A DNA stretch of 44,608 bases, from contig JARYLZ010000018.1 of the NCBI GenBank assembly GCA_029907355.1, positions 1 to 44,608 on the forward strand, given 5' to 3'. A model generated the notes under the pieces. The model searched no databases, had not been told where the DNA came from, and saw nothing but the letters and a program-made list of their open reading frames with translations. This document shows, one piece after another, positions 566 to 24,405 of the stretch (within the stretch, counting starts at the first letter, position 1; every line of letters starts with the position of its first letter). Made by a program: the position numbers and the translations under genes. Origin of the DNA: Bacteroidota bacterium. GTDB taxonomy: Bacteria; Bacteroidota; Ignavibacteria; SZUA-365.

Positions 566-655
566 GCGCGGCGGCGCGTTCATTCATGCTTTGTTGTGAT
601 CGCGCGAGAGTCGTAGGTTGGGAAGAGATTTCCACCAAGCACAAGGAGGTTTCAC

Positions 656-1819: not shown

Positions 1820-1854
1820 AAAACGAAGAACCAGACCTTTCGATCTGGTTCGTT
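1820..1854 (-). terminator. Likely native rho-independent terminator of tRNA-Ser, displaced with the tRNA 3' fragment
   Basis: On the minus strand the arms AACCAGA and TCTGGTT enclose TCGAAAGG, flanked by AACGA/TCGTT, and are followed by TTTT. The hairpin sits directly after the tRNA-Ser 3' fragment (1860-1919). A weaker relative with the shared core CCAGATCGAAAGG lies at 24288-24309, just after the intact tRNA. Confidence 0.6.
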
Positions 1855-1859
1855 TTCAA

Positions 1860-1919
1860 CGGAGAGGGAGAGATTCGAACTCTCGATACCCGAAACGGGT
1901 ATAACGGTTTTCGAGACCG
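1860..1919 (-). repeat. attachment-site copy: 3' part of tRNA-Ser(CGA)
   Basis: Sixty bases identical to 24318-24377, covering the discriminator base, acceptor 3' strand, T arm, variable arm and the anticodon stem-loop 3' part. Identity ends at 1920, where the rest of a tRNA would be needed and is absent. This is the classic footprint of tyrosine-recombinase integration into a tRNA gene. It marks the left end of the 22.5-kb island. Confidence 0.9.
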
Positions 1920-2025
1920 GTTCAGGTGAGCACTCAGACCGATTTCAAAGGGCTTACCGCTGTCCCAGCACCAGCGAGTCAGAGGCAGTGGCTACCACCT
2001 TTGCAACCAGCAACAGGAGGTATCC

Positions 2026-3046
2026 ATCCTTCTCGGCAAGCGATCCAATGGGGTCTACTACGTCTGGTACACCCATCACCATGGTCGGAAGTCGAAAAGA
2101 TCCACCAAGGCGACAACGAAGAGCGAGGCACTACGTTTTCTCCAACGATTCAAGATCGAGCAGAATGAGCGGGAGCACCTAGCCCCGAAGGTCATCACAT
2201 TTCGGAGCTTCGTCGTAGAGTTCCTTGAATTCTCCAAGTCTATCCACACCGAGGCGAAGGGGCGGCACTTTGCGAAGGCGGCGCGGGAGTTCGAGAAGTG
2301 CCTGGGCAACCCGAAGCTCAGGGAGATCGCCACGCGCGACATCGAGAGGTTCCTCGCCGTCAAGTCCGAGGAGGCAACGAGGTGTTAATCGCGTTAATAC
2401 TACTCCCTCTCGCCAGTGTGTTCGAGAAGGCACGGGGGTGGGGCTACGTCGAGGTGAACCCCTTTCGATCCATCAAGAGACCGTCCCCGCTGCAGAGAAC
2501 GCCAGTGTACTTCTCGGCTGATGAACTGAAGGTTGTTCTTGCATCCATACGTGACCCAGACCTGACGATCATCACACAGGTAGGGATCTAGGTGCCGCAT
2601 TGGGGAGATCCTATCGCTCTCGTGGGACTCAGTGGATTTCGAGAGAGGTGAGCTTCGGATCAGCAACGCCAACGGGTTCGTCACCAAGTCGAAGAGGGAG
2701 CGCGTCATCCCACCCCATCCCGCTCTGAAGAAGGTGCTGGAGCCGTTGAAGAAGGAGGCAAGATCCCAGTGGGTGATCCCACGAGAGGAGACGCTGAAGT
2801 GGTCTGTGTCGCAGATGTCGATCAGGTTCAAGAGTTCCCTGCGACGTTCCATTGGAGAAGAAGCGGAAGAAGGGGCTTCACTTCCACTCGTTGCGGCACA
2901 GCCACGCCACATGGTTGTTGGAACAGGGTGTTCCGATCTCTTCGGTGTCCAAGTTCTTGGGTCATGCCTCGTTCAAAACCACGGAGGTCTACAGCCACGC
3001 CGTGCCTCATGACTTCAAGGGCCAGCTCGACAAGCTCACGTTGTGA
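2026..3046 (+). pseudogene. Tyrosine recombinase (integrase) of the island, multiply frameshifted
   Basis: Pieces in three frames rebuild one integrase of about 340 residues. Fragment 1 (2026-2388) has the arm-binding/SAM-like part (SNGVYYVWYTHHHGRKSKRS and LREIATRDIERFLAVKSEE) and ends at TAA. Fragment 2 (about 2399-2591) has ASVFEKARGWGYVEVNPF and ends at the same TAG as copy 1. Fragment 3 (about 2593-2850) has CRIGEILSLSWDSVD. Fragment 4 (2852-3046) has HSLRHSHATWLL and the nucleophile context KTTEVYSHAV. AGGAGG at 2015-2020 precedes codon ATC at 2026, where an ATG would be expected. The gene begins about 105 bp from the left attachment repeat. At least three indels make it nonfunctional. 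Confidence 0.85.
2484..2613 (+). repeat. Recombinase repeat block, copy 2 (matches 1-130)
   Basis: Second copy of the 130-bp near-identical block. The offset to copy 1 is 2483 bp at the 5' side and 2481 bp at the recombinase stop codons, so the two recombinase units are collinear. Confidence 0.85.
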
Positions 3047-3134
3047 GCGCGGCGGCGCGTTCATTCCTGCTTTGTGCGACCGCGCGACAGTGGTAGGATT
3101 GAAGCAGTTGTTTTCAACGTGATTAAGGAAGAGC

Positions 3135-3748
3135 ATGGACGACACGAAGTTTGAAGGGAAAGCGACAATCCCACACAAGTCGATCCTCGACCATCTGCGG
3201 GACTCCTGAAGCACGGTGGGGTCTTTGGCAAATATATCGTCGCATGTCTGCTGGCATGTGGGGCATTCTATCCAGCCGTGCAGGGATTCTTCCCCCAAGG
3301 TTTCGATCCATGGGCTTGCGTCTGGATGCTGGGGGTGATCGTCCTGATCTACTCGCTCTGGAGAACAGTCTCTGCCTCCTACAGTGATGTCCCCTCATCC
3401 ATCAAGGACAACGCCTTTCTGAAGTGGGTGTCCTTCTGGCAACGCACCGGAGGGACGCTCTTGATCACACATCATCTCATCAAGGTGCATGTCAAACAGA
3501 TGCAGAGCCCGTATGAACGTCTCGGCAAGAAGAGCAAGTTCATGTCTGCGCGGGAGCTTGACGATGAAGAATTCCGGCAATGGGCAAGCACCAAGGTGAC
3601 GGAGTGTGCCAGACTTCTGGCGGCGACAACAGGTACCGTCTGCGACCGGCTTCTCTCTATGCTCAGCACGATCAAATCAGGGGATGACTTCCACAAGATC
3701 CTCGACGGCGTGAGCGCGGTTGGTGAGTCTTGTGACGCAATCGTATGA
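3135..3748 (+). pseudogene. Hypothetical membrane protein, recombinase-associated cargo 2, N-terminal frameshift
   Basis: ATG at 3135 opens a 24-codon frame (MDDTKFEGKATIPHKSILDH...) that stops at TGA 3207-3209. A second frame then runs uninterrupted to 3748 and encodes KHGGVFGKYIVACLLACGAF..., two close hydrophobic segments (about IVACLLACGAFYPAV and WMLGVIVLIYSLW), and a soluble tail with an acidic stretch (SARELDDEEFRQW). The two parts join sensibly, so one gene of about 205 residues with a 1-base indel is likely. It follows its recombinase as cargo 1 follows copy 1, but the proteins do not resemble each other. The function is unknown. The 3' end abuts the ABC-F remnant. Confidence 0.6.
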
Positions 3749-4377
3749 TTTAAGATGCTCCTCAAGCCGTTCCAGGGCTTCGATATCGAGGGGGTTGGTC
3801 GGCTCGTCGTGCAGCAGAATAGCGGGTTCGCTCAGGAGCATTTTCGCGAACGCTATGCGCATCTGCCAGCCGCCACTGAACTCCACCCTCATTCGGCGGA
3901 ATTCCCGCTCGTGGAAACCGAGGCCGGAGAGTACCTGCGCGGCTTTCGTTTCGATGTTCCAGCCCTCGCGGTGCTCGAGCACGTGCTGGATGCGCTGACT
4001 TCTTCGACCAGTTCATGAAGTACGGCGGAGTCGGTATGGCCCTCTTCCGAGAGTTGCGATATTCGCCTGCTCAGATCGTCCGCACGATCGTGCAAGGCGA
4101 TGACATCGTCGAAAGCGTGCTATGCCTCTTCCATGAGTGTTCGCCCCGCATGATGCACGCCGTCCTGCGGGAGGTAGCCGACGGCGTTCGAACGCGATTG
4201 GGAAATCTCACCGGAATCCGGTTCAATCTGCCCAACGATGATTTTCATGGGCGTGGATTTACCGGCGTCGTTGGAGCCGACAATGGCCGCGCGCTCACGG
4301 TCGCCGAAACGTATCGAGAGGTCCAGGAAAAGATTCTCATCGCCGTATTGTTTGGAGATGTTGTTGAGAGCGACCAT
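3745..4377 (-). pseudogene. ABC-F family ATPase, remnant of the first nucleotide-binding domain
   Basis: Minus-strand remnant of an ABC-F protein (Uup/EttA type, ribosome-associated ATPases). From MVALNNISKQYG the frame reads to a TAG at 4120-4122, continues in the same frame to about 4005, then shifts to ...EHREGWNIETKAAQVLSGLGF. Motifs are recognisable but eroded: Walker A is GSNDAGKST where Gly is usual before AGKST, the signature is FSGGWQMR, and Walker B is AILLHDEPTNPLD where LLDEPTNHLD is usual. The second domain is absent; similarity stops at LKSYD near 3745, beside the cargo-2 stop codon. One nonsense codon, one frameshift, lost motif residues and truncation make this a decayed fragment. 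Confidence 0.85.
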
Positions 4378-4777
4378 GCCAGCGCCATTTCGGCACGGGG
4401 AGGGTTTCTTGGAAATGCGGGAAGGGGAGGGTAAGGGGTGGGGAGTGGCCGAACAGAATCAAATAGCGTTGACCCTTGTACGGCTGTGACCGGAGAGCTT
4501 TGTAACGTGTTCATCGCGCAGCGCTGGATCCTCCACTTGAGATCCCTTGGTGTGGATGTTTTGTGGACCGCATTTGCCGTGGCTCGAACGCCACCCTTCG
4601 CGACCACTTGTGCGCCGCCGACTCTGCCTCGTACGCAGGTAGATTCTAGCGAATCAAAACCATTAATAAGATACGAAGGTCCACTTTGTCTCCTCAGCAC
4701 TGCATGGAACATGAATATTTCGGGTCCGTGCTCCGTTACCGGCGCCATTCATCATTCATCATCCCGCATACATCATT
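4378..4777. other. Gene-free stretch between the ABC-F remnant and the response regulator
   Basis: Four hundred bases without a convincing gene. They contain a purine-rich tract (4396-4447) and, at 4751-4780, one copy of a dispersed repeat that touches the regulator stop codon. Confidence 0.5.
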
Positions 4778-4780
4778 TCA
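4751..4780 (-). repeat. Dispersed 3'-end repeat, copy 1
   Basis: The plus-strand core TCATCCCGCATACATCATTT matches 8341-8369 with few changes and more loosely 22001-22030. Each copy sits at the 3' end of a minus-strand gene and includes or touches its stop codon. Confidence 0.6.
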
Positions 4781-5437
4781 TATCACTGCCTTGTTTTCAA
4801 CCGCGAAGCGCAGGAGTGCGTGGCTGCCGCTGATGTCGAGTTTGCGGCAGATGTTGTAGCGGTGGGATTCGACGGTGCGGAGCGATATCGAGAGCTGCGC
4901 GGCTATCTGGCTGCTGCTTTGCGCCTCGGCTATCAACCGGAGCACGCGGCGCTCCAGCGGCGACAGACGGTCGAGGTTGAGACGCCGCTCGATTCTTGTC
5001 CCCAAGGCGCGATTCCGCTGCAGGAGGAGGTTTGTCAACGCCGTGCTGATGTAATATTCCCCGGCCGCCACCTGCTCCAGTCCGTGGAGGATATCGGGCA
5101 CAGCCGTCTCTTTCAGCATGTAGCCGGCAACTCCTGCATCCATGGCGAGGTTGAAGAGCGAGGGTTCGTCATGCATAGTGAGTATGATGACCGAAACGGG
5201 GAGCCCGTCCGCGTTGACGCGCCTGGCGACGTCAAGCCCTGTCAGCTTCGGCATCTCCACGTCGAGTATCGCCACGCGCGGCGCCAGCTCGATGATCATC
5301 CGGAGCGCTTCTTCCCCGTCGCACGCCTCGCCGACCACGGCGTACGTCGTGCTCCGCTGAATGGCGTCGCAAAGGCCTCTGCGGAAGAGAGGATGGTCGT
5401 CTGCGAGGACGATAGTGACGGGATTGGAATTTTTCAT
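4778..5437 (-). CDS. NarL/FixJ-family response regulator
   Basis: A 219-residue transcriptional regulator. The receiver (about 7-125) has the acidic pair in LADDHPLF (D13-D14), phospho-acceptor D59 in AILDVEM, Thr in IILTMHD and Lys in YMLKET. A LuxR-type HTH (about 155-212) reads LSPLERRVLRLIAE...SISLRTVESHRYNICRKL. The chosen start, MKNSNPVTIVLADD, aligns with the family; a longer frame to 5497 adds 20 residues unlike a receiver. It lies 124 bp after the histidine kinase, in the same direction, and should receive phosphate from it and act on promoters. A decayed HTH half of a close paralogue is at 22032-22255. Targets are unknown; the flanking surface-protein genes are the obvious candidates. 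Confidence 0.93.
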   Translation of the reverse strand: MKNSNPVTIVLADDHPLFRRGLCDAIQRSTTYAVVGEACDGEEALRMIIELAPRVAILDVEMPKLTGLDVARRVNADGLPVSVIILTMHDEPSLFNLAMDAGVAGYMLKETAVPDILHGLEQVAAGEYYISTALTNLLLQRNRALGTRIERRLNLDRLSPLERRVLRLIAEAQSSSQIAAQLSISLRTVESHRYNICRKLDISGSHALLRFAVENKAVI

Positions 5438-5561
5438 CTGCCGCCGCACTGTGAGGATGCAATGCATGAATGTATGCAACCGCATCGGGAAGGGCAATTG
5501 CGGGCAGCAGTCCGGTCGAGACCGCGGTGGGATAACGTATCCGCGCAGCCAGCGGCGCAGT

Positions 5562-8090
5562 TCAGCTTTCGCGCTCCGTTGAGCATACCTCGTTCATCAC
5601 GGGTTGCGGCGGGTGGACGGGAAACAGGATGTCCAGCGTCGTACCCTTTCCCGGCCTCGACTGTATGGTGAGAGCGCCGCCGAGCATCCGAGCCCACTCG
5701 CCCATGCCCTGAAGCCCGAAGCCGAGGCGCATCGGATCCTCATGCCGCGAAGCCCCGGGATCGAAGCCCTGGCCGTTGTCCGTTATCGTGAGCCGCACGC
5801 CGCCGTCCTCGCGCGCCGCCCGCACCGCCGCTTCCGTCGCGCCGGAATGCTTCAAGACGTTGTTGAGCGCCTCCTGTACGATCCGGTACACGTTTATCCG
5901 GTCTTCACTCGAGAAAAGTCCGTCTATGTCGCCGATATCCGCCGAGAAACGGATCCCCGAAGATCTCGCCGCCTGATGCACCGTGTCGCGTATCGTCTCG
6001 GCGAGACCCGAACGCTCGAGCTGCAGCGGGCGGAGGTTGCGGGAAATAACGCGCACGTCATCGAGGGCTTGCTTCGCCATAGCAGCGATTTTCACGAAGC
6101 CCTCGCGCGCGGCGGCATCGGGCTCGTCGAGCAACGACAGGTTCGCCTGGTTGCCGATGACGAGTATCTCCTGTCCTAAGCTGTCGTGCAGCTCGGCGGC
6201 GATGCGCTTGCGCTCCTCCTCCTGCGAATCGAGAAGTTTTTTCGAGAAATGTTTCTGCGCTTCCTTCTCCTTCCGCTCTGTTTCGGCCAGCAAGGCGAGC
6301 GACTGCGCCTCGGCCGCCCCGGCCCGGAGCTCCGCGGCTTCGGCCTTCAGCGCCGCCTCGCGTCTCTTCTCCCGAAGGCGGTGCGCGACAAGCAGCGATA
6401 CGAGGAACACGACCAGCAGCGCCGCGGCCAGACCGCCGATGGCCGTGTTACGGAGACTTTTTTGGTATTCGAACGCGGCCGCCTGCAGCTGCCGGTCCTT
6501 TTCTGCGAGAGCCAGATCCTTGCGATTGCGGGCGATTTCGCTCTGCCGCCGCTCGAGCAGCGATGCCGCGTTGCGGAACTCGAGGTCGCGGATCTCCTTG
6601 TCCCTCGATAGGAGAATGTTCCGCTGCTTCGCGCTCTCCATCTCGGCTGTCCGCTGCTGCAGCTGCAGATCCTTCAGCCGCGCGTCCTGCTCCAGCAGGC
6701 GTATCGCGTCCTCACGTTTGTCGGCATCGTAGCGGGCGGTCAGCTCGGCGATGGTTTTCGCGCTGCGCTCGCTGTAGATTTCGTCCTTGAGCGTCGCCGC
6801 CTGGCGGTGGTATTCCAAGGCGACGTCATAATGCCCAGCCGCGGCATAGGCCTCCGAAAGAAAGGCGTTGACTTTCATTCTTCCATCCTTGTCGCCTGTT
6901 TTAAGGGCGATGTCCAACGCGCGTTTCCCATACATGATTGCAGAGTCAGGATTCTCGACGCAGTTCAGATATAAGCGGCCGAGACCAATCAAGGGCATCG
7001 ACAGGTCCGTCTCGTTTCCACCCTTTTCCGCCACCGCTATTGAGAGGAGAAACTCCTTCCGGGCTGTTCCGCAATCGTTCATCTGTGAGGCAACGAGACC
7101 GAGGGCGTTGTGTACAAGGCACATCATCACTGCGTCATGGATATCCTCCGCGATCTTCAGAGCCCGCGAATGGGCGGCAAGACCTTCGTCGATTCTGCCT
7201 GTTTCGAGAGACAGGTTCCCTATGCTGTATAACGCCGTGGCAGTGCCACCTTTCCAGCCGATTTCCTCGCACAGCGACTCGGCTCGACGGAAATACAAAA
7301 GTGCTTTTGCCTTGGCGTCACCGCCTTGGACGTAACCGAGACTTTGAAACACCTGCCCGAGGTTGATCAGGGTGCTCGCCATGAGGGGCCGGTATCCCAG
7401 TTGTTCGCTTGCGCGCAGGACGCGTTCGTAATAGATGGCGGCCGAGTCCAGCATGTCCAACTCGAAATATATGGCGCCGACGAGGTTCATCGTTTCGGCA
7501 ATCCGAGTGGGTTTTCCAATCTTCTCATACAGCGCGAGACTTTTCTTGGCCCAGGAAAGGGCTTCCGCCTGTTTCCCGCTCAACCGGCAGCACAGCCCGA
7601 GATGGAGCATGCTGTATGCGGTCCCCTTCTCGTCGTTGAGGCTTCGATAAACGTCGAGGGCTTCACCCAGGCAGCTCAGCGCGCTATCGAAGGAACCTTT
7701 TGCCGTATAATATCTGCCGTACATCAGTTGGGCGCCGGCGTATATGCTCCGGTGGCCGAAGCGCGATGCAGCCGATTTTACTTCGTCGAGCAGAGCCGGC
7801 GTCCTGCCCGGGTCTTCTCCGATTTGCCGCTGGTCTTTCCCCATGCAGCGCTCCGCCAGGTTCATAAGGGCGATCATTCGGTTGGTGTCGCTTGGAGCGA
7901 GTTGGTGGATTTCATGCAGCGTTTCATCCACCGACTTCCGCTGCGAGTATGAGATCCCCTGCGGTAGAAGAAGCAGCGAGAGAAAAGCCGCGCATACCCG
8001 CGCCCGCAAAGGGAACGAAGCATGGTTTTCATGCTCGCGTGTTGCGAAGGAAGCGGTCGAGCCGCGCAATAGGATCCATGAACGGTTCAT
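5562..8090 (-). CDS. TPR-containing sensor histidine kinase (HisKA_3 / NarL-partner type)
   Basis: A protein of about 842 residues. The start MNRSWILLRG at 8090 is chosen because a hydrophobic export segment (ARVCAAFLSLLLLPQGIS) follows near residues 30-47; the open frame extends further upstream with low-complexity sequence. A periplasmic array of about seven tetratricopeptide repeats follows (e.g. YRSLNDEKGTAYSMLHLGLC, IAETMNLVGAIYFELDMLDS), then a coiled coil rich in RxxEI/LEQ, one membrane helix (AIGGLAAALLVVFLVSLLV), a dimerisation box with the phospho-His in RIAAELHDSLGQ (about His635), and a HATPase domain with the N box VQEALNNVLKHSGA, G1 DNGQGF and G2 GFGLQGMGEW. Family knowledge: such kinases phosphorylate a neighbouring LuxR-type regulator, here the next gene. 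The ligand is unknown. Confidence 0.93.
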   Translation of the reverse strand: MNRSWILLRGSTASFATREHENHASFPLRARVCAAFLSLLLLPQGISYSQRKSVDETLHEIHQLAPSDTNRMIALMNLAERCMGKDQRQIGEDPGRTPALLDEVKSAASRFGHRSIYAGAQLMYGRYYTAKGSFDSALSCLGEALDVYRSLNDEKGTAYSMLHLGLCCRLSGKQAEALSWAKKSLALYEKIGKPTRIAETMNLVGAIYFELDMLDSAAIYYERVLRASEQLGYRPLMASTLINLGQVFQSLGYVQGGDAKAKALLYFRRAESLCEEIGWKGGTATALYSIGNLSLETGRIDEGLAAHSRALKIAEDIHDAVMMCLVHNALGLVASQMNDCGTARKEFLLSIAVAEKGGNETDLSMPLIGLGRLYLNCVENPDSAIMYGKRALDIALKTGDKDGRMKVNAFLSEAYAAAGHYDVALEYHRQAATLKDEIYSERSAKTIAELTARYDADKREDAIRLLEQDARLKDLQLQQRTAEMESAKQRNILLSRDKEIRDLEFRNAASLLERRQSEIARNRKDLALAEKDRQLQAAAFEYQKSLRNTAIGGLAAALLVVFLVSLLVAHRLREKRREAALKAEAAELRAGAAEAQSLALLAETERKEKEAQKHFSKKLLDSQEEERKRIAAELHDSLGQEILVIGNQANLSLLDEPDAAAREGFVKIAAMAKQALDDVRVISRNLRPLQLERSGLAETIRDTVHQAARSSGIRFSADIGDIDGLFSSEDRINVYRIVQEALNNVLKHSGATEAAVRAAREDGGVRLTITDNGQGFDPGASRHEDPMRLGFGLQGMGEWARMLGGALTIQSRPGKGTTLDILFPVHPPQPVMNEVCSTERES

Positions 8091-8340
8091 AATGGCGCCT
8101 GATTGATGTATCCGGAGCTGCCGGTGGTGCGACCGTAGAGGTGAAGGTAAAGATGAAGGTGAAGGTGAATGCCTCTCTGCCGGTGTGCAAGCGGATCGGA
8201 GCGATGCGAGTCCGCCGCAGGTGGAGGATCCGAGAACGCGGAGGCCCGAGGTTTTGTGCTTCGGTACGACAGGGGACAAGCTCCGATGGGGCGCCAGGTG
8301 AGGATGCGTCCGGGTGAGGGTGCCGCGCGGGAGCGCAACC

Positions 8341-8369
8341 TCATGCATCATTCCGCATTCATCATTTCA
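8341..8369 (-). repeat. Dispersed 3'-end repeat, copy 2
   Basis: The plus-strand core TCATTCCGCATTCATCATTT overlaps the TGA stop of the 2051-residue protein and nearly equals copy 1 at 4751-4780. Confidence 0.6.
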
Positions 8370-11300
8370 CCACCGCCATCCTCCTCGCCAATACCGCTCC
8401 TCCCGCCTCGAGACGGTATATGTACACCCCGCTCGGCAGCGACGAGGCGTCGAAACACGCGCTGTGCATGCCGGCGAGTCGGTATTCGTTCTCCACAAGA
8501 CGCGCTATCTCCATGCCGAGCGCATTCGTAATCACGAGACGCACAACCATGGGCTTCGGGATGGAATACTCTATCGTAGTTGCCGGATTGAACGGATTCG
8601 GGTAATTCTGCGCGAGCGTGATCACGCCCGGCGGCGGAACGGCCGTCTCTATTCCCGTCGGCCCGGCGGGCACCGCGAGAGTCACGTGGTCTGTGAAACT
8701 CCGCCCCTTCTCGATGGTCATCTCCACCGCAAAAGTGACAGTCTCCGTGCCGGCCGGTATCTGCATGTCCATGCTGTCCGCGCGGGCAACACCCTTCGCC
8801 ATGTCTCCCATGGTGAAATGTGAAGGTGAAGGTGAAACGGGGGAGACGTTCGAGTCGAGGGGCGTTATCTGAGCCGTGACTGACTGCGCGTCGGCGCCGC
8901 CTGCGTTAAGAACGGTGAATCGAAGCCTGTATACGGGAGGGGAAGAGGGGGAGAGGGGAAGAAGGGAAGCATCCCCGAGACTCAGGACCGGTTCTGTGAT
9001 CTTCAACGCCGCCGCCGGGCCGATGTCCGTGAGGGCGGCCGCAGCCTGGTCGAAGCAGCCGAGTATCGTGTCTATCTCTGCCACCAGTGGCGCGTTCTTC
9101 GACTCCTGCGGGTCGACCAGGTAATCGGCCAATGCCGCCGACAGCACGGTGCGAAGGGCGCGGGCGCGGTTCGCTTTGGCCAGCGCGTCCAGAACGCCTC
9201 CGAGCAACGGGCCGTCCACCACGAGCCGGGACGGGAGTATGCCTTCCAGCGGGCGCGCGCGACGCGAAAGCTCGGCAACCGCTCCCCTGCCGCTGCCGCG
9301 CAGGACGTGGAACCTGGCATTGATGTAACCGGTGTCCTTCTCTATCACCTTTGAGCGAAGCTCGAGCAGAAGGGTGCGGTCGGCGTCGAGCGCCGCCTGA
9401 TCCGCCGTCCTTTCGAACGGACCGCTTTTCGACAAGGTTCGGAATATGTTGCCTGATCCATCGGCGTTGTTCGTCACCGGATCGAACGCCGCTTCAGCAG
9501 CGGAGTTGATTTCCGAGGGCAGCGAACCGATACCGGGCAGCGGCGATGCGGATGTCAGGTAAGCTGCGCGTGTGAGGGGAGTCTCGCCTCCCAGTATCGC
9601 CTTCCGCACGTTGTCGATGAGCCGCGGGCGAAGGTTCACCATCTTCCTCAGGAAGGGGCCGAACTCCACGTTGCCCGAGGATGAGATCGCATAAGCGGCA
9701 TCCAGATCAGTAAGACCGTTGCCGTAAGCGGTGAAATCCGTCTTCAAAGCTGTGGTCGTGCTCTTTGCAGCATCCACGTGCCTTGTCGTTTTGACTGCCG
9801 CCGAATCGTAGCTCCCGGCTATGTCCACCCGCCAGGTCCGATCCGCAAAGGTTGCTATCATCTGCTCTGTTGCGGGGATATAGTCTTCGGCCAGGTACTT
9901 CTGCTGATAATATGGGAGCACCGAGATGAGCATGCCAGAGGTCAGATCCGCGACGTCGCCGCTGCGGCGCACGGCCTCGGCGTAAAGCGTGGCGCTTCCC
10001 GCGGCGCCTTTCGCGCCGGTCATTGCCGACAGCGTCTTCTCGCCGTCCAGCGCGGCGAATGCAAGGTCGTCCATCACGGCGTCGTAGAGCGGCAATTTCT
10101 CCTGAGCGATCTTCACCCTTTCCAGTTTCCAGAGCAGCGCGAGGGCGCCGAGGTTTTTCGCGCAGAGGGCCGGCGCTAACACCGCCTCGCGAGCCATCTC
10201 CTTTGCGCCGGGGAAATCCGCATCGTTGCCCCAGGCGACGAGCAAGGCCTGCTCGGCCAGCGCGTAACGATGCATCGCCTCCGCCGCCTTTTCCGGCTCC
10301 GCCGAGCCCGTCTTCTTCCACGATGCGATCAGCCCTATCGCCGCCGTCTCGTCGTAGCCGCGCGCGTGGTCGCCGAGCAGTCCGCGCAGCGCAGCCATGT
10401 CCGCGCTTCCCTCGGGGATCAGCGCTTCCAGCCGGCCGATCAACGTGTCCTTGGCATCCATCGCCGCCAGCATCTCGGGAGTCACCGTGATGTCGAGCGT
10501 CTTCGCGCTCGCCGTGTTCGACCAGGCGGACTCCCCGTACCTGTTCGCGGCGCGGATCCGGTACCAGTACGTCGTGTTGATTGCCAGTCCCGTGTCGCTG
10601 AAACCGCGGTCCGATGCGATCGGTCCTGCTATGCGGGCAAACCCCCCCTGGTCGGATGTGAGCGAGCGCTCGAGATCATAGCTCTCGACGAAGGTCGTGT
10701 CCGGTATCTCCCACGAAAGCCGGATCGACGTCGTCGACTGCGGCGCTGCGGTCAGCATGCGCGGAGGTCCCGGCGGTGTGGGACTCGCCGTGCCCGTCGT
10801 CGCGCTTACGATGGGTGAGTAACCGGATGCGCCGCTCTTGTTCACCGCACGGATCCGGTAATAATAGATTGTAGAGGGTTGCAGGCCGGTCCTGTCGTAC
10901 GACCGCGCGCCCGGCCCCGCATCCGGCGACACCTTTCGGAAATCCGTCTCCCTGTCCGTCAGCGACTCCTCGATCTCGAAGCCCGCCTCCACCGCCGGCT
11001 CTGGCTGCAGCCAGGCGAGGCGGATCGAGAACGGGCCTGTCAGCGTCGCGGACAGGCCGAACGGCCTGCCCGGCACTGGCAGCGCAGGCGTTGTCGCGCT
11101 CGCCTCGTTCGACCAGTCGCTCGCCCCGGCACCATTCACCGCGCGGACCCGGTACGAGTATGTCGTCTGGTCCGCAAGACCCTCGTCCAGCACCGTCGTG
11201 ACGCCACGGGCCGCGGTCTTCGCCGCAGCCCACGCTCCCCCCTGCGTCTGACGTTCGATCTCGTAATACTGCTCGTTCGCCGACCCCTGTTTCCAGTTCA

Positions 11301-14300
11301 GGCGCACCGATCGGTAGTCCACCGCCGTCGCCGACAGCGACGTGGGCGCATCCGGATGGAACGCCATCACCACCGTCTGCTCCGCGGACCAGTCGCTCGC
11401 GGCGTCGTCCCCTACCGCACGCACGCGGAGCACGTACGTCGAATCCGGAGCGAGGCCTGTGCACACGTGCAACGTCGCGTTCGCCGCAGCCGTCGCGGCC
11501 TGCGACCACGCGCCTCCGGCGAGACGCTGCCAGACCTCGTACCCCGTCTCCCCCGTCGCGTTGTCCGTCCACGTCAGCCGCGCCTGCGTGGCCGACAGCA
11601 CCTCCGCCTGGAAGGCGGTCGGAGCCGCGAGGAACATTTTCGTCTTCACGTCCGCAGTATTCGAATACGCTGAACGCACCTGCCCGTCATATGCCATCAC
11701 GCGGAACTCGTACCGCGTATCCGGCTGAAGGCCCGCCACCGCCACGTGCTCGGCATTCTCCCCGACCGTGTCGACTGCGGTCCACGAACCCGGCGGCACT
11801 GCTAGTTCGAGGATGAATCCCTCCTCGCTGCCGCTGTTGTCTTTCCACGTGAGGTCCGCGCCGCTGTTCCCGGTCGCCGTTGCGGCGAGACCGGACGGGG
11901 CGGGGAACGGCCCGGTCGTCGCATCCGCGGTGTTCGAGTATGCGGATGCGACGGTGAAATACATCGCCAGGACGCGGAAGGAATACGCGGTCTGCGGTTT
12001 CCTGCCCGTCAGCAGCACGTCTGTGGTGTTGAACCGCACCGTGTCCACGGCTGCCCACGGCGAAGCGCCGTATTTCTGCTCGATAATGAAGCACGTTTCC
12101 GTCGAGGAGTTGTCTTCCCATGCAAGGTGAACCCTCGTGCCGCCTAAAGCAGTTGCAGTAAGGCCGGACGGCGCCGGCGGCGGAGCACTTAGTAAGGACT
12201 CGAATTTCGCGAGGTAGGCCGATTCTGAACTGAGCATGCTCGTCTGATATGCTCCCGGTGTTGCGATGCCTGATTTGCTTCTAGTGCTTCCACAGATGTA
12301 TGTGCTGCCGTTCGGATCGACGGCGAGGCCCCCCAGTTCTTCATACAACTTTCCTCCGAAATATGTTCCGAGCTGCCGCACTCCCGCCGGGCTGAATTTC
12401 GCTATAAAAGCGTCATGATCTCCGCCGATTGCGCTTTGATAGGTGCCTAAGGTCGCGATGCCTGAGAAACTCGCAGTTCTACCGGCGATGTATACAGCGC
12501 CTGCGGCATCGACCGCTACTGATTCTCCATCGTCCTCATTTTCGCCCCCGTAATATGTGGCCCACTGCCGCACGCCGTCTGCGTCAAACTTCACCAGGAA
12601 CGCGTCTAGGCTCCCGGCCTGTGTTACTTGATGCCCGCCTGATGTTGCGAGGCCGGAAAGGCTCCCTGTCGCCCCTCCGAGATACACCGCTCCGCCGGGA
12701 CCGGTTACGACTGAGTTCGCCCAATCCTCATCCTCTCCTCCGTAGTAGGTTCCCCACTGCCGTACTCCGGAAGAGTTGAATTTCACCAGGAACCCATCTC
12801 TCCATTTTTTATAGGAAGTTTGATGCGCTCCCGGTGTGGCTATGTTGTCGGGACTCCATGTATACCCGCAAACATAGACGTTCCCCCCTGCATCTACTGC
12901 AATGGAGCAACAGACTTCATCGTCGTTCCCACCGTAAAACGTTCCCCATTGCCGCACACCGTTCGCATCGAATTTCACGATAAACCCGTCATTCCCTCCG
13001 CCGCCAAATGTTACCTGATGCGCGCCCGGCGTGGCACAATCGTGGATGGCCTTAACAAAACCACCAGCCATGTATACGTATCCACCTGGATCGATAGCCA
13101 CAATTGGATTGCTACCATGATAATACGTTCCCCACTGCCGAATGCCGTTAGCATCGAATTTTACGAGAAACGTACCGATTGTCATCGGTTCGTAAGTCGT
13201 CAGGTGCGCTCCTGCCGTCGCGATGCCTGTCGTGCTGGCTGTCCTACCGCACAGATATATATTTCCCAAGATATCGACAGCAACGCCCTCGCCAACGTCC
13301 TGTGTTTCACCTCCGTAATAGGTCGCCCACAATCTCGTACCATCCGCGTCGAACTTCACCAGAAATGCATCAGATAAATAGGGTCCGGTAGGTCCACCCA
13401 ACCCGAATGTGGTTTGATGCGCGCCCGGCGTGGCGATATTGGTCGCGCTCTCCGTTGTCCCGGCCATGACGACGTTTCCACTTGCATCGACCGCCACGTC
13501 AGCTCCACCACCGTTTCTTTCCCCGCCGTAATACGTGGCCCAGGGATCAATCACCAGCGTGCGACCCCCATCATAGGAATCCGTACGGAAACCCACCGTC
13601 GCGCCGTCGCGCACGAAGCGCGTCTGCACCGGTCTGTGGTCGCCTTCCGTCCAGCACGCGGGCGCGGCTTCCTCTATCGCGCCCAGCGGCGTCGTGACCG
13701 ACAACCCGCCGTCGCCCAGCAGGGATACATCACCCCCGCTCTCGTAACGCATGCGTATGTCCTCCGGCCTGCCTCCGGGACGGACGACGAAATTGTACTT
13801 CATCAGGCCACCGGAGGAGAACAATTCCAGATCGATCTTATCGTATACCTCCTCGTACACGACGCGGCGGTACTCCCGCACGCCGAGCAGACCGTCGGGA
13901 CACTGCGGCAGGTAGTAGTTCACCACGCCGTCGAGTTGCTCCTCCCCGCGTACCCGCGCGGCGGGGTTGCAGCCGGCCAGCGTCATGTCCAGACGGTACG
14001 TCTCCACCGTCACCGTCTCCCCGGCCTCCGTCCTGTCCGATCTGCTGAGAAAGGGATCGGCATCCCAGTCCGCTTCTCCGCTCGTCCGGGTGAACACCGT
14101 GCTGATGCCGTCAAGCCGCAGGTACAGCTGCGCCCCCGGTACATCCGCCTTGAAGAGGATTTCCGGATGCCTGCGCCCGTCGGCGTCTATGAACTGGCCG
14201 CGGTTCTCGGTGAAGCGGATGGAGGAGTTAGGAGTAGAGAGTGGGGAGTAGGGAGTGGGGTGTAGAAACCGGGTCTGACCGCCAGCGTTCCCCCCAGGTG

Positions 14301-14517
14301 GATGTAGGCGGGGAGCACTTGATCGAGGACCGGGAAGCAGGCAGCGGGTGCCGAGCAAAAGGCGTTCCGATCGCGGGAGCCGCAGCGAAGGCCCCTGCGC
14401 GACCCGCGCCGCCGCGATTGTGCGCGTATTGTCCGGGGTGCAAACCGGCGCCGCGCCCCCGCCCGCAATCAAATATTGAGCATACACGCACACGCTCAGA
14501 ATCCAGAATAGAACCAT
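8362..14517 (-). CDS. 2051-residue T9SS-secreted protein: SBBP propeller repeats, six FnIII domains, helical module, sorting domain
   Basis: Start MVLFWILSVCVYAQY gives a plausible signal peptide; GAGTAAGG just before the ATG may serve as ribosome site. A proline-rich, repeat-like stretch follows to about residue 100. Next comes an N-terminal beta domain (IRFTENRGQF..., 100-325), then about seven SBBP repeats (325-775, pattern VAVDAxGNVYxxGxT...DAFLVKFDAxGVRQWGTYYGG), six fibronectin III domains (about 780-1340), a mostly helical module of about 490 residues (1345-1835) with no family I recognise, an Ig-like segment, and a T9SS type A sorting domain (LAQNYPNPFNPATT...LPSGVYIYRLEAGG). It is probably displayed on the cell surface as an adhesin or sensor. 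Part of the helical module recurs as a pseudogene at 22256-23080. The histidine kinase begins 272 bp downstream. Confidence 0.9.
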   Translation of the reverse strand: MVLFWILSVCVYAQYLIAGGGAAPVCTPDNTRTIAAARVAQGPSLRLPRSERLLLGTRCLLPGPRSSAPRLHPPGGNAGGQTRFLHPTPYSPLSTPNSSIRFTENRGQFIDADGRRHPEILFKADVPGAQLYLRLDGISTVFTRTSGEADWDADPFLSRSDRTEAGETVTVETYRLDMTLAGCNPAARVRGEEQLDGVVNYYLPQCPDGLLGVREYRRVVYEEVYDKIDLELFSSGGLMKYNFVVRPGGRPEDIRMRYESGGDVSLLGDGGLSVTTPLGAIEEAAPACWTEGDHRPVQTRFVRDGATVGFRTDSYDGGRTLVIDPWATYYGGERNGGGADVAVDASGNVVMAGTTESATNIATPGAHQTTFGLGGPTGPYLSDAFLVKFDADGTRLWATYYGGETQDVGEGVAVDILGNIYLCGRTASTTGIATAGAHLTTYEPMTIGTFLVKFDANGIRQWGTYYHGSNPIVAIDPGGYVYMAGGFVKAIHDCATPGAHQVTFGGGGNDGFIVKFDANGVRQWGTFYGGNDDEVCCSIAVDAGGNVYVCGYTWSPDNIATPGAHQTSYKKWRDGFLVKFNSSGVRQWGTYYGGEDEDWANSVVTGPGGAVYLGGATGSLSGLATSGGHQVTQAGSLDAFLVKFDADGVRQWATYYGGENEDDGESVAVDAAGAVYIAGRTASFSGIATLGTYQSAIGGDHDAFIAKFSPAGVRQLGTYFGGKLYEELGGLAVDPNGSTYICGSTRSKSGIATPGAYQTSMLSSESAYLAKFESLLSAPPPAPSGLTATALGGTRVHLAWEDNSSTETCFIIEQKYGASPWAAVDTVRFNTTDVLLTGRKPQTAYSFRVLAMYFTVASAYSNTADATTGPFPAPSGLAATATGNSGADLTWKDNSGSEEGFILELAVPPGSWTAVDTVGENAEHVAVAGLQPDTRYEFRVMAYDGQVRSAYSNTADVKTKMFLAAPTAFQAEVLSATQARLTWTDNATGETGYEVWQRLAGGAWSQAATAAANATLHVCTGLAPDSTYVLRVRAVGDDAASDWSAEQTVVMAFHPDAPTSLSATAVDYRSVRLNWKQGSANEQYYEIERQTQGGAWAAAKTAARGVTTVLDEGLADQTTYSYRVRAVNGAGASDWSNEASATTPALPVPGRPFGLSATLTGPFSIRLAWLQPEPAVEAGFEIEESLTDRETDFRKVSPDAGPGARSYDRTGLQPSTIYYYRIRAVNKSGASGYSPIVSATTGTASPTPPGPPRMLTAAPQSTTSIRLSWEIPDTTFVESYDLERSLTSDQGGFARIAGPIASDRGFSDTGLAINTTYWYRIRAANRYGESAWSNTASAKTLDITVTPEMLAAMDAKDTLIGRLEALIPEGSADMAALRGLLGDHARGYDETAAIGLIASWKKTGSAEPEKAAEAMHRYALAEQALLVAWGNDADFPGAKEMAREAVLAPALCAKNLGALALLWKLERVKIAQEKLPLYDAVMDDLAFAALDGEKTLSAMTGAKGAAGSATLYAEAVRRSGDVADLTSGMLISVLPYYQQKYLAEDYIPATEQMIATFADRTWRVDIAGSYDSAAVKTTRHVDAAKSTTTALKTDFTAYGNGLTDLDAAYAISSSGNVEFGPFLRKMVNLRPRLIDNVRKAILGGETPLTRAAYLTSASPLPGIGSLPSEINSAAEAAFDPVTNNADGSGNIFRTLSKSGPFERTADQAALDADRTLLLELRSKVIEKDTGYINARFHVLRGSGRGAVAELSRRARPLEGILPSRLVVDGPLLGGVLDALAKANRARALRTVLSAALADYLVDPQESKNAPLVAEIDTILGCFDQAAAALTDIGPAAALKITEPVLSLGDASLLPLSPSSPPVYRLRFTVLNAGGADAQSVTAQITPLDSNVSPVSPSPSHFTMGDMAKGVARADSMDMQIPAGTETVTFAVEMTIEKGRSFTDHVTLAVPAGPTGIETAVPPPGVITLAQNYPNPFNPATTIEYSIPKPMVVRLVITNALGMEIARLVENEYRLAGMHSACFDASSLPSGVYIYRLEAGGAVLARRMAVVK

Positions 14518-20080: not shown

Positions 20081-21065
20081 GAACCATACCTGTGAATGAT
20101 CCGCTTAGGCTTATGGCGTTCACCGTGTTATTCATGATCTTCGAAGGATACGTCTCTGCCCCATTGCAATAGATGCCGTAAAAGGACGATCCAGCTACAC
20201 CTCTGAGTTCATACGTGCTTTGAATGATCAATTCCGACTTTCCGATGATATTACCACGGATGATATGGCCATAGCTGAAGGTGCCATCAGCAATCCAGAT
20301 TGCGGAGTGCGATACGCCTGCAGTGTAGGTCTTCGCTGATGTATGAAAAAAGTAGTTTCCTTCTATTGTCCAAAACGAATTGTTTTCATTTATATACACA
20401 CCCGAGCTTATCATATCGCCGACAAAATAATCATGAATCCTGTTGTTGATGATTTTGATATTGTCGTTGTTCCGACCCAGCGATCCGTAGCCCCACACTG
20501 CATATTGTAGGGCTGGGCCGTACGGCCCGATATCGCAATCGCTGATGGTATTATCCTCGTTTCCATTTCCGGCAGTAGCGGATCCAGCACCGCTGATGGT
20601 GATCGAACCCTTAATATCACAGCGTGTGAGAATGTTGTTTGTAGCACCACCCGTGAAGTAAACTGAGGTGCCGTTGCTCATGGATGCGATCGTCAATGAG
20701 TTCGAATTATCCCGAAGGCCGTCTATACGTACATTGTCGGCGCCATCGAGATGGATCACTCCTTTGTATGATGAGAAGGAGCCTTGAACGAATCTAGATC
20801 CACCGCCACTAGGCATAATAACGATGGAGGAATAAAATGAAGATCCTGTTCCGCTCGCATACAGAACGGCTGCTTCAATCTCGACAGTATTCCCAGTGAG
20901 CAAAATTGTTATGTCACCTTTGTGCGTCCCTGCATTTATTGCATCGAATGCGAGCTTCAATCTTGGGTACGTATTGCTACTCGCTTCGCTGAAAACTTCG
21001 ACCTGTGAAAAGGATGACAAAGACGCGAAAATAAACACGATTGCAATTCGAATGAGGGCATTCAT
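19935..21065 (-). CDS. T9SS-secreted beta-helix protein, 5' part of the same frameshifted gene
   Basis: The start at ATG 21065 has GGAGGAACC directly before it. The signal peptide is MNALIRIAIVFIFASLSSFSQ. The rest is right-handed parallel beta-helix, with rungs such as GVIHLDGADNVRIDGLRDNS, NNILTRCDIKGSITISG and NIKIINNRIHDYFVGDM. The frame is correct until SSYI near 19960, then runs out of register into HLCI and TAA. Restoring one frame at the (AT)4 tract gives SSYIYGIYAYKT, which fits the rung pattern and joins 17144-19950 into a protein of roughly 1300 residues. It is either broken, switchable by slippage, or affected by a sequence error. Confidence 0.85.
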   Translation of the reverse strand: MNALIRIAIVFIFASLSSFSQVEVFSEASSNTYPRLKLAFDAINAGTHKGDITILLTGNTVEIEAAVLYASGTGSSFYSSIVIMPSGGGSRFVQGSFSSYKGVIHLDGADNVRIDGLRDNSNSLTIASMSNGTSVYFTGGATNNILTRCDIKGSITISGAGSATAGNGNEDNTISDCDIGPYGPALQYAVWGYGSLGRNNDNIKIINNRIHDYFVGDMISSGVYINENNSFWTIEGNYFFHTSAKTYTAGVSHSAIWIADGTFSYGHIIRGNIIGKSELIIQSTYELRGVAGSSFYGIYCNGAETYPSKIMNNTVNAISLSGSFTGMVLGLRFHAIYAQRGVDSICWNTIGSVASSTISVSNISTGPSSYIWHLCI

Positions 21066-21128: not shown

Positions 21129-21488
21129 TCACTTCGGGTTCATGTATCCGTCACGCAGGTAGCGGAGCAGGTCCATGAGGTCCTCTTTCAGGAAATACGC
21201 GACCGCACCGGCCTGTCGCGCCTCTTCGCGATACCACTCCTTGTCGTGTTCGGTCACTATCACGATACTGGCGGAGGGATCCAGGGCCCGTATCCTCGCG
21301 GTGGCGGTTATTCCGTCCATGCGCGGCATGCGCACGTCCATCAGCACGACGTCGGGCATTTCCGATTCATAGCGCTGAACCGCCGTGTCGCCATCGTCCG
21401 CGGTAGAGACGTTGGGCGTCAGCCGCAGCATCAGGTCGCGAAGGAAGGCGCGCATCGGTCCGCTGTCGTCCACGATCAGGATTTTCAT
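21129..21488 (-). CDS. Stand-alone CheY-like receiver, copy 2
   Basis: A 119-residue receiver identical to copy 1 (16630-16989) except Gly for Glu near the C-terminus (DGYMNPK). All phosphorylation residues (D7-D8, D51, T79, K101) are kept. It lies 63 bp upstream of the beta-helix gene and in the same direction, so it could be co-transcribed with it. It belongs to the 716-bp direct repeat. Confidence 0.93.
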   Translation of the reverse strand: MKILIVDDSGPMRAFLRDLMLRLTPNVSTADDGDTAVQRYESEMPDVVLMDVRMPRMDGITATARIRALDPSASIVIVTEHDKEWYREEARQAGAVAYFLKEDLMDLLRYLRDGYMNPK

Positions 21489-21846
21489 CGCTTTCCCGTT
21501 ATCCGGTTCTATCTCGGTCCTCAAATGCAAATACGTCCGCGCTCAATGGAATGTCAATCAGTGTTACTACTGAAAAACCTAAGTAGGAACACTGAGTCCT
21601 CCCCCCTTCGCCCCCCTGGAAAAGGGAGGGTAGGGGGGGTGATCACTTCAGCAGCGTCATCGTCCGGCTGATCCGCCTGTCGCCCGCCTCGAGACGGTAG
21701 ATGTATATGCCGCTGGGCAGGTCGCTGCCGTCGAACTCCACGCGGTGGGATCCCGCCGGCTTGACCGCGTCGACGAGACTGCGCACCCGGCGCCCGTAGG
21801 AATCCAGCACCCGGATGCGCACGAAAGTCTCTTCCGGTAACGCGTA
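21131..21846 (-). repeat. 716-bp direct repeat, copy 2
   Basis: Second copy of 16632-17347, ending abruptly at 21846 within codons for SYALPEETF. Beyond that point the sequence is unrelated to the beta-helix gene body. Confidence 0.95.
21643..21846 (-). pseudogene. Orphan T9SS sorting-domain 3' end
   Basis: Sixty-eight codons (YALPEETFVRIRVLDSY... to TMTLLK, stop) identical at the protein level to the end of the beta-helix/HYR protein. Upstream (21850-22000) there is no cargo domain or NYPNPFNP motif, only gene-free sequence, so this tail has lost its protein. Confidence 0.85.
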
Positions 21847-22000
21847 TGAATCGTTAGACGTTGGACAGTGGACGGAAAATCGAGATGCGACGGGGATCGA
21901 GAAGGCGGATATCGGATTTGAGACGCTTGAAAAGCGACCGTACGGGTGTCTCCACACATCTACTTCACTCAGGCGGATCAATGCTTCCGGAGCAAACGGC

Positions 22001-22031: not shown

Positions 22032-22255
22032 TCAAATCATCGCATTGTTCTCCATCGCGAAACGCAGCAGGCTGTGGCTCCACGTTATGCCGAGTATCCT
22101 GCAGATGTGATAGCGGTGGGCTTCCACCGTTCGTGTGGAAATGGAAAGCAACTCGGCTATGCCGCGATTGGACAAGCCGTCGGTGATGAGGCGCAATACA
22201 CGGCGTTCTATTCCGGTCAGGTCGTCGAGTCTCAGGCGATGGTCGATACGCGAGG
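22032..22255 (-). pseudogene. HTH half of a second NarL-type response regulator (remnant)
   Basis: The minus-strand frame reads RIDHRLRLDDLTGIERRVLR... SISTRTVEAHRYHICRILG... SLLRFAMENNAMI, stop. It aligns without gaps to the C-terminal 70 residues of the regulator at 4778-5437 (RIERRLNLDRLSPLERRVLR... AVENKAVI). The receiver half is missing. Directly upstream is the remnant of the helical module at 22256-23080, with the join at about 22255. It is a deletion product of a paralogous surface-protein/kinase/regulator locus. Confidence 0.85.
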
Positions 22256-23080
22256 CGGCGCGTTTTTCGCGTCATGCTGGTCCACCAGGTAGTTAGCCTG
22301 CGCTACCGACAGAACCGTCCTCTACGTGAGAGTGCGGTTGGCCTTCGCCACCACGCCCAGGCAGGCGTTGCGCAGCGAGGCGTCCGACGCGAGCGCCGCA
22401 GGCGAGATACCGCCCTCGAACGGCAGCGTGCAGCGCGCAAGTTCCGCGGATGCACACCGACCGCTCTCTCGGAGGTTGTAAAACTTCGACGCTATGTACG
22501 CCGTATCCTTCCCGATCACATTCGCCCGCAGTTTTAGCAGCAGTGCCCGTTCCACGTCAAGCGCAGTCTAGTCGGCGGTCCTATCAATCGGATATCCCTT
22601 CGAAAGCGAACGGAATATGTTATCCGCTCCCGTTATGTTGTTCGTCGCCGGATAGAACGCCACGGAGGTCAGGTATGCGGCCCGTAGCAGCGGCGCCTCC
22701 GCCGTGGGTATCGCCTTGCGCACGTTGTCGATGAAACGCGGGCGCAGGGCCACCATCTACCTCGGAAAGGAGCGAGTTGCACATTCCCCGACGAGGATAT
22801 CGCGAACGCCGCATCCAGGTCCGTCAGGCTGTTGCCGTACTAAGGGAAGTCGCTCTTGAGAGCGGCTATAGCCGCCTTCGCCGACTCCACATGCCGCGCA
22901 GTTCGTGACAACGGCTGCGTTGCGGATGTGTAATCGCGGACCGCGAGCGCTGCTGATAATACGGAAGAATCGAAGTCAGCATCCCTGACGCGAGACCGGC
23001 CACGTCTCCGCTCCCGCGTACCGCCTCGACGTGCAGGGCGGCGCCGCCGCCCGTCCCAGCGCCGCCGGTCAGCGGCTCCA
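22256..23080 (-). pseudogene. Remnant of the helical module of a paralogue of the 2051-residue protein
   Basis: Minus-strand pieces match residues about 1500-1790 of the protein at 8362-14517: VEAVRGSGDVAGLASGMLTS...LPYYQQ (about 22940-23045), RPRFIDNVRKAIPTAEAPLL...IFRSLSKG (about 22600-22750), and LLLKLRANVIGKDTAYIASK through VVAKANRTLT (22322-22555), then ANYLVDQHDAKNAP. Stop codons and frameshifts separate the pieces. No SBBP, FnIII or sorting domain remains. Confidence 0.85.
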
Positions 23081-24032
23081 TGATGTTGAAGTTGTTGAAG
23101 GTGAGGCCCAGGGCTCCCGTTGCGCCGAAAGTCCCGCTGTAGCCGACCGAAGCATTGACGTATCGCTCGATCTCTCCTTGACGCTGTACACGATATCGAC
23201 TGGGGAATCGTTCACGATGGCCGGTTTTGGACGTATGGCTTCCGGATATGAATAGTTAAGTGTAGCCAGCTCGCCAATGCTGCGTATGATGGCCGGGCGG
23301 TTGAAGAAATCACCCGGCCACGTGTACAACAATGTATCTCCTCGCTCACCGGTCACATTGAGCGGGTCTCGGAGTCGAAAAAACTCATCCATCGCTACGA
23401 TCTGCGAGTACACGGTGTAGTGTTCATGCATCGAGATGTCCCGCAATGGGCTGTCTTGATTTTGGATGCCGAGGTAGTTCAGCGAGTTGAGAACATTTTC
23501 CAGATAAGAGTAGAGCACATTGAAAATGCCGTCCACGAAGAAGAGAGGGGCGATGGCTGACTGAGGGATACGAATCGTCCGCACCTGTCCGACAATACCG
23601 ATGAGAAGGTGGATGGTCGCAAGCGGATATTTGAGCCGGAATTCGTTTTTGCCGTGGTAGCGTCGGAGGATGTTCGGCTGAAGACATGAACCATATTTTC
23701 CGTTCCAGTCCGGCGGTTGCATCTTCCTGTTCCAGATAACCATATGGTGCCCAACACTCATGACATGAGGTCGGTAGATCTCCATGTCCAAGAAAACACA
23801 GTTATCGTCGTGTGTCGAAAACTATTCTTCAGCAACAGCACCTTGCATCGTAATACCCCGCGATCTTCCAACCGACGTATTTCGACGTAAAGAGTCCACA
23901 GAGCAGTCCATCGCTATCTGGGTTGAGAATGCAGTTCATGTTTCCGCGCACGATCCAAGGAAAGCGCGTCAAAACGTCTTGATAGTTCAGTTCATTGACT
24001 CGTCCGGCGAGCAATTCTTGAGTGTGTGCCAT
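23080..24032 (-). pseudogene. Frameshifted gene of unknown function with DHH-phosphoesterase-like motifs
   Basis: Pieces in several frames rebuild about 315 residues. The 5' piece starts at ATG 24032: MAHTQELLAGRVNELNYQDV...GNMNCILNPDSDGLLCGLFT...IAGYYDA, with TGA following. After indels near 23850 and 23810 the main frame (23791 down to about 23175) reads NCVFLDMEIYRPHVMSVGHHMVIWN, then ILRRYHGKNEFRLKYPLATI. A last shift near 23170 gives ERYVNASVGYSGTFGATGAL. The order D-SDG, FLDME, VGHH resembles motifs I-III of DHH-family phosphoesterases, but spacing and fold are unverified. The gene lies at the tRNA end of the island. It is clearly broken; the family assignment is tentative. Confidence 0.55.
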
Positions 24033-24287
24033 TCGTGCAGTCCTTCAGATGAGTTGGCATAGGGAATCGCTTGATTTGAGTCTCGCTTGCGACTGCCCAG
24101 CAGGATTTGACCGAGCAGGAGCCAATGTTCATCAGGAGCCAATGTTCATATGGTGACCAGAATGGTAACCACCGGTTCTGGATCACCGTCTTGGACATCC
24201 ATCTCCATGCCCGGCGCAGTGAATGGATGTGTCGGCAATCCGAGGATCTGCCGCCGATAAATTCCGGGTACTCACGGGATACACGAA

Positions 24288-24309
24288 CGCCATACCTTTC
24301 GATCTGGCG
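24288..24309 (-). terminator. Weak hairpin downstream of tRNA-Ser
   Basis: CGCCA/TGGCG arms around the core GATCGAAAGGTA on the minus strand, 8 bp after the tRNA, without a good T tract. The core matches the stronger hairpin at 1820-1854. Confidence 0.35.
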
Positions 24310-24317
24310 CTCGGCTG

Positions 24318-24377
24318 CGGAGAGGGAGAGATTCGAACTCTCGATACCCGAAACGGGTATAACGGTTTTCGAGACCG
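24318..24377 (-). repeat. attachment-site copy within intact tRNA-Ser
   Basis: Identical to 1860-1919 over 60 bases. The crossover must lie somewhere within this block; it cannot be placed more finely from one sequence. Confidence 0.9.
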
Positions 24378-24405
24378 CCGCATTCAACCACTCTGCCACC
24401 TCTCC
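24318..24405 (-). tRNA. tRNA-Ser(CGA)
   Basis: An 88-nt cloverleaf on the minus strand. Acceptor GGAGAGG pairs with CCTCTCC, the discriminator is G, and CCA is not encoded. The D-arm region is GTGGCAGAGTGGTTGAATG. The anticodon loop CTCGAAA gives anticodon CGA (plus 24369-24371). The long variable arm contains TACCCGTTTCGGGTA and the T loop is TTCGAAT. It decodes UCG. Its 3' 60 bases are the integration target, and the gene remains complete at the right end of the island. Confidence 0.95.

Follow-up and report, generated by a model that had tools for sequence, protein, structure and literature searches.

A probable collapsed second copy of a surface-protein and NarL-type regulator gene set in a decayed tRNA-Ser island of an Ignavibacteria genome

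The sensor kinase FimS carries TPRs, and FimR is a regulator of the LuxR type. In Porphyromonas gingivalis, the two are described as a sensor kinase and a regulator that activate the FimA fimbriae (PMC11053733). The locus analyzed here shares with this pair the combination of a sensor kinase with a regulator that would control a surface structure, and its kinase matches the FimS family NF053520 over two stretches. The score of 96 bits, however, falls far under the family's cut-off of 600, which places the kinase outside the FimS type. The neighboring gene differs as well: it encodes a T9SS-exported SBBP/FnIII protein of a kind found in many copies per genome, and its regulation here is putative. 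A non-exhaustive literature search, which is no proof of absence, found no locus uniting an SBBP protein, a TPR kinase and a NarL regulator.

Such a triplet is intact between 4.8 and 14.5 kb of the window, the whole stretch of 44,608 nucleotides that was analyzed (Table 1). The T9SS type A tail of its big protein reaches 26.2 bits with TIGR04183 (cut-off 23) and 21.9 bits with Pfam PF18962, under the cut-off of 27. The helical module of this protein matched no Pfam or NCBIfam family. It has about 40 invariant positions across 14 to 15 relatives, and a model built from 15 sequences (pLDDT 82) predicts it to be nearly all helical. Comparison of the model with the PDB gave no significant Foldseek match (best E 0.47), and the best E of a profile search of the PDB was 0.054. 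Against vinculin, apolipoprotein E and designed bundles, VIA Z values did not exceed 12.6 and covered residues 303-432 only, the usual range for helical bundles. Of 61 genomes searched, 9 have the module, and these all belong to the window's family; a scan of 84,980 species (one genome each) located it at 17 loci, all in MAGs titled Ignavibacteria or Bacteroidetes.

Table 1. Positions of the intact triplet, the fossil and the island features in the window.
Feature	Position	Strand	Evidence or remark
Intact big protein: DUF7948, SBBP propeller, six FnIII, helical module, T9SS type A tail	8362..14517	-	Pfam, NCBIfam
Helical module in intact big protein	9022-10317	-	~430 residues
Intact TPR sensor histidine kinase (HisKA_3)	5562..8351	-	Pfam
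Intact NarL/FixJ-type response regulator	4778..5497	-	Pfam, NCBIfam
Module remnant, piece 1	22947..23081	-	Big-protein residues 1496-1540, 60%; third frame; first part overlaps BamA-like reading
Module remnant, piece 2	22765..22905	-	Big-protein residues 1576-1622, 66%; one in-frame TAG; different frame
Module remnant, piece 3	22256..22768	-	Big-protein residues 1622-1810, 53%; three in-frame TAG; ~20 residues missing internally
HTH remnant: last 79 codons of NarL/FixJ-type regulator (GerE HTH), without receiver half	22035..22271	-	tblastn, Pfam
Module-HTH join	22256..22271	-	CGCGCC common to fossil and both intact genes
BamA (Omp85) fragment, one frameshift	23055..23332	-	Host BamA residues 389-481; fused to module remnant
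Remains of open frame upstream of BamA fragment	23333..24032	-	Frame broken
tRNA-Ser(CGA)	24317..24405	-	Right island border; ARAGORN
Exact 60-base copy of tRNA-Ser 3' part, att-like	1860..1919	-	Left island border, 100%
Decayed tyrosine recombinase, several frameshifts	about 1990..3100	+	Pfam PF00589 on two pieces, E 1.6e-7 and 7.6e-14
Tyrosine recombinase (PF00589) cut by contig end	1-617		Second integrase by left tRNA copy
Decayed ABC-F ATPase gene, N-terminal third, frameshifted	3719..4389	-	Adjoins intact regulator

Positions 23081 to 22256 of the minus strand contain a pseudogene, spread over three frames with four in-frame stops, that corresponds to the C-terminal helical module in the big SBBP/FnIII protein. 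A tblastn search with the intact big protein recovered it as three collinear minus-strand pieces (joint E 2.4e-67). The adjoining regulator remnant is 58% identical to residues 161-239 of the intact regulator (tblastn, E 1.3e-22) and matches Pfam GerE (E 8e-13); it runs without an inner stop, and its stop codon aligns with the end of the intact regulator gene. With these two tblastn E values in a target of 44.6 kb, chance is ruled out as the source of the matches. The original prediction, a helical-module remnant fused at about 22255 to the HTH half of a NarL regulator, was therefore borne out both in its parts and in the position of the join. Its limits, 22032-23080, hold for the module and HTH parts and missed the BamA fragment upstream; because the stretch continues into that fragment, the composite has at least three parts.

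The module remnant has the marks of an unprocessed pseudogene, with homology over several hundred bases (255 aligned codons) and inactivation and gene loss evident in four stops, two frame changes and the absence of both ends. All four in-frame stops of the module remnant (22256-22905) are TAG. The regulator remnant retains the HTH alone and does not qualify as a NarL/FixJ regulator, while the intact gene has both the GerE HTH and the receiver. The BamA fragment is 79% identical to the host's BamA over 58 aa and 91% over 34 aa (tblastn, E 2e-38); taken alone, its two pieces gave zero Pfam matches. The broken frame upstream of it had no match in Pfam, PHROGs or NCBIfam, and its first 150 aa had no relative in 21 genomes, plasmids and viral contigs. 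No match to the fossil DNA was found among plasmids. The fossil is an ordinary collapsed pseudogene inside a decayed island, itself without function.

Both joins within the composite carry short shared sequences. The six-base microhomology at the module-HTH join is the kind of trace that a deletion would leave, and up to nine bases (TGACCGGCG) are common to the fossil and the intact module at the BamA-module join, whose BamA side can be compared by reading only and not by letters. On a plain reading, the joins would have arisen by deletion between short repeats. We searched the fossil for a kinase remnant and found none (best tblastn E 0.5); a receiver remnant is absent as well. Traces of all three genes of a collapsed triplet are accordingly not present, and what remains, the module and the HTH, lies in the same order and on the same strand as in the intact locus, each piece being nearest to its partner there. 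The original prediction of a second triplet joined by deletion thus stands as regards relatives, order, strand and microhomology, and lacks its kinase and receiver; because of this lack, we infer the complete second triplet from two of its parts.

The explanation that we favor, with a probability of about 0.7, is that the fossil is a second, diverged copy of an SBBP/FnIII/module gene and a NarL-type regulator, collapsed by deletions in a decayed and probably foreign tRNA-Ser island. On this view, a chromosomal segment carrying such gene sets would have been acquired from a related bacterium, leaving ABC-F and BamA remnants at its ends. Its redundant parts would then have decayed, while one triplet stayed whole. 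One deletion may have removed the remainder of the big-protein gene along with the kinase and receiver, joining module to HTH, and another may have fused a BamA gene to the module partway along its length. The TPR kinase of the intact set would sense something at the membrane and phosphorylate the NarL regulator, which would in turn control the neighboring T9SS-exported surface protein.

An island of 22.4 kb is bounded by direct repeats of the tRNA-Ser(CGA) 3' part. With a tRNA and a direct repeat of its 3' part at the ends and an integrase near one end, the region has the features of a tRNA-associated island. The integrases and the ABC-F remnant were detected from a six-frame reading; ten frames of 89-4748 and 23992-24606 gave no Pfam match. 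Because a third copy of the tRNA-Ser 3' part, 58 bases long, sits on another contig of the host (G000:C158:641-698), islands may be stacked at tRNA-Ser(CGA). In two relatives, a module gene or an SBBP gene lies near this tRNA: the sole module gene of G004 (L043, 5656-11229) starts 1.8 kb from tRNA-Ser(CGA) at 3756-3843, and an SBBP gene of G001 (L143, 10796-13375) lies 3 kb from tRNA-Ser(CGA) at 7715-7802. The tRNA may be a landing site for SBBP/module genes.

The island also contains a 719-base direct repeat (16632-17350 and 21131-21849, 99.6% identical), within which lie a single-domain receiver and a T9SS gene tail; the second copy stands downstream of the HTH remnant. It resembles a recent tandem duplication that has lost the gene body upstream. 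An HYR/T9SS gene at 17144-21065 is apparently split by one frameshift near 20.0 kb, its frames 19935-21065 and 17144-20080 overlapping; no simple repeat was seen at the frameshift site.

The BamA and ABC-F remnants point to the source of the region. The ABC-F remnant is 69-76% identical to the host's ABC-F on contig C17 (tblastn, E 3e-81). At third codon positions, the BamA remnant is identical to host BamA at 43 of 92 and to five other genomes at 36-51 of 92; for the ABC-F remnant the count against the host gene is 97 of 215, with 285 of 660 between the host gene and that of G001. Judged by these sequence comparisons, the remnants appear as distant from the host's intact genes as other genera are. 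The host's intact BamA (C160; TIGR03303, 407 bits) and ABC-F (C17) are neighbors, in the order seen in G001 and with one Dpp5 gene spanning both contig ends; in G001 and G012, BamA and ABC-F lie about 7.5 kb apart on one strand. The remnants in the window keep this chromosomal order and strand; 18.7 kb separates them, a span that contains the surface-protein sets. No trace of LpxD, prenyl synthase and Dpp5, which lie between BamA and ABC-F in the host, survives in the window. In G003 and G006, ABC-F and BamA likewise flank a kinase/regulator pair of the window's kind, with regulators only 47% identical to the window's and not specially close; no such pair was found there in G004.

These comparisons make a foreign origin of the region appear likelier than duplication in this genome. 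The region would most simply be read as a chromosome segment from a relative that integrated at tRNA-Ser and then lost its redundant parts to decay; as an alternative, the lineage itself may have kept a very old copy. The original prediction had spoken of two paralogous triplets in the island. Both the BamA join and the remoteness of the BamA and ABC-F remnants from the host genes point towards a foreign segment, so that "paralogous" would be more aptly taken to mean a diverged second copy whose origin probably lies outside the genome.

Since the BamA piece fused to the module shows that such joins occur here, the module-HTH join could likewise unite different loci. The module, HTH and BamA pieces and the broken upstream frame might then all come from separate loci brought together by illegitimate recombination, with the adjacency of module and HTH due to chance. 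There are at least three joins within 1.1 kb, BamA belongs to no triplet, and the 719-base repeat ends about 180 bases from the stop codon of the HTH remnant, all of which suits such an origin. We nevertheless consider it improbable, for the order, strand and nearest relatives of the module and HTH pieces match the intact triplet, and the remnants at either end of the island preserve the chromosomal order and strand of BamA and ABC-F. The closest of 25 modules to the module remnant is the window's own intact one (156 of 250 columns, 62.4%), followed by G010:C134 (132 of 250, 52.8%), with the other 23 at about 33% or less. These three form one clade with 100/100 support, within which the sister pairing of the remnant and the window's module against G010:C134 has support of only 90/46. 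With the window's intact regulator the HTH remnant shares 58.2% identity, and the next of 46 regulators stands at 47.4%.

This closeness of the module remnant to the window's own copy would also fit a triplet doubled within the island, one copy of which then collapsed, and the recent 719-base duplication demonstrates that the island does duplicate. The codon positions argue against it. Identity at positions 1, 2 and 3 is 186, 205 and 115 of 255 in the module and 53, 59 and 30 of 79 in the HTH, so that third positions are near saturation (45% and 38% identical, respectively). Second positions are conserved far better than third positions, which rules out that a recent copy decayed neutrally; module and HTH diverged under protein-level selection as working genes, their decay being recent or short. 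Duplication in this genome also accords poorly with neighboring remnants as far from the host genes as other genera, and a functional copy is unlikely to have been kept so long beside useless BamA and ABC-F pieces. We regard it as quite unlikely. The host genome contains no further regulator of the window's kind and no further module gene.

An assembly chimera in this metagenome-derived genome could be suspected from its 173 contigs, its 3.65% contamination and the long near-exact repeat adjoining the join. A chimera would unite intact pieces, however, and here there are several independent stops and frameshifts and a short shared sequence at the module-HTH join, making this a very remote explanation. 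Continued production of the HTH remnant as a small, free-standing DNA-binding protein that tunes the intact regulator's targets is scarcely credible despite its stop-free 79-codon frame and good GerE match, since it is out of frame after the module remnant, its sole listed in-frame start would give 54 aa, and 42% of its residues differ from the intact HTH.

The favored reading of the fossil as a collapsed second gene set leads to the question of how often such sets occur. After our grouping of matches, the 9 genomes hold 28 module genes, with 11 in G003 and 5 each in G008 and G010. The triplet and the multiple copies per genome that the original prediction proposed to look for were both found. 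Three of the 27 other module genes (L041, L044, L046) show the window's order (SBBP/FnIII/module gene, TPR kinase and NarL regulator on one strand); a kinase/regulator pair lies directly upstream of the module gene at 2 of 27 (L029, L033) and is convergent with it at one (L045). Downstream of G010:C134, the gene most closely related to the intact module gene (66%), neither a kinase nor a regulator lies within 7.2 kb.

We define regulators of the window's kind as those with at least 43% identity (45 genes), a line set after inspecting the list; full receiver-HTH matches show an identity gap between 43% and 35%. Such a regulator is found no more than 10 kb from 11 of the 28 module genes, compared to 1.08 expected (10 of 27 without the window); the other 17 have none at this distance, partly owing to contig ends. 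For DUF7948 genes above 140 bits the count is 18 of 29 (1.01 expected), and 24 of the 45 regulators have a DUF7948 or module gene nearby. Among DUF7948 genes under 140 bits, 4 of 43 lie within 10 kb (0.95 expected), all four being partial (at most 129 of 214 profile positions). There is no link to NarL regulators in general, other NarL regulators lying within 10 kb of 1 of 28 module genes (0.62 expected). General clustering of T9SS cargo near these regulators was not seen either: among the matches listed for three genomes, with module genes removed, 2 of 124 other T9SS cargo tails lie within 10 kb (2.72 expected). The expected counts assume independent positions, which paralogous or inherited clusters violate, and short contigs hide neighbors, so it is the contrast, rather than any p value, that should be read.

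The link between surface protein and regulator is real as a genome arrangement, with variable gene order. It is at least as strong with DUF7948/SBBP proteins generally as with the helical module, and it centers on the former. The original prediction had taken the fossil as support for a functional link between module and regulator; such a putative link is supported by gene neighborhoods in the 9 genomes, and the fossil itself says little for it. A single-domain receiver often stands beside a DUF7948/SBBP gene or NarL regulator (L027, L037, L041, L044, L046, L048, L049, L080, L083, L088), and the window has two, at 16.6 and 21.1 kb. It is a possible fourth member of the set.

We tentatively propose, as a view that is still rather doubtful, that one Ignavibacteria family carries a repertoire of cassettes, each comprising a T9SS-exported DUF7948/SBBP surface protein (often with FnIII and the helical module), its own TPR kinase, a NarL regulator and often a single-domain receiver. 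These might spread partly via tRNA-Ser islands and interspecies chromosome exchange and then decay like variable surface-antigen loci, each regulator serving its own protein. If the regulator controls its neighbor, the surface proteins of these bacteria form a repertoire whose members are switched separately. The fossil's value is in leading to this family of repeated surface-protein/two-component gene sets. The linkage test, with its negative control, finds one exported surface-protein kind and one two-component kind co-located far above chance in little-studied uncultured bacteria, and the remains of two neighboring housekeeping genes at the island ends suggest uptake of a piece of a relative's chromosome.

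Compared to known tRNA-associated islands with tyrosine recombinases, the window is alike in its intact tRNA-Ser, the exact 60-base 3' copy opposite and the adjoining integrase remnants. It differs in that its integrases are broken or cut by the contig end and in that it carries decayed housekeeping genes (BamA, ABC-F) and surface-protein sets. The big protein itself resembles secreted SBBP/DUF7948 proteins with T9SS type A tails in having DUF7948, SBBP, FnIII and the T9SS tail, to which it adds an all-helical module of about 430 residues.
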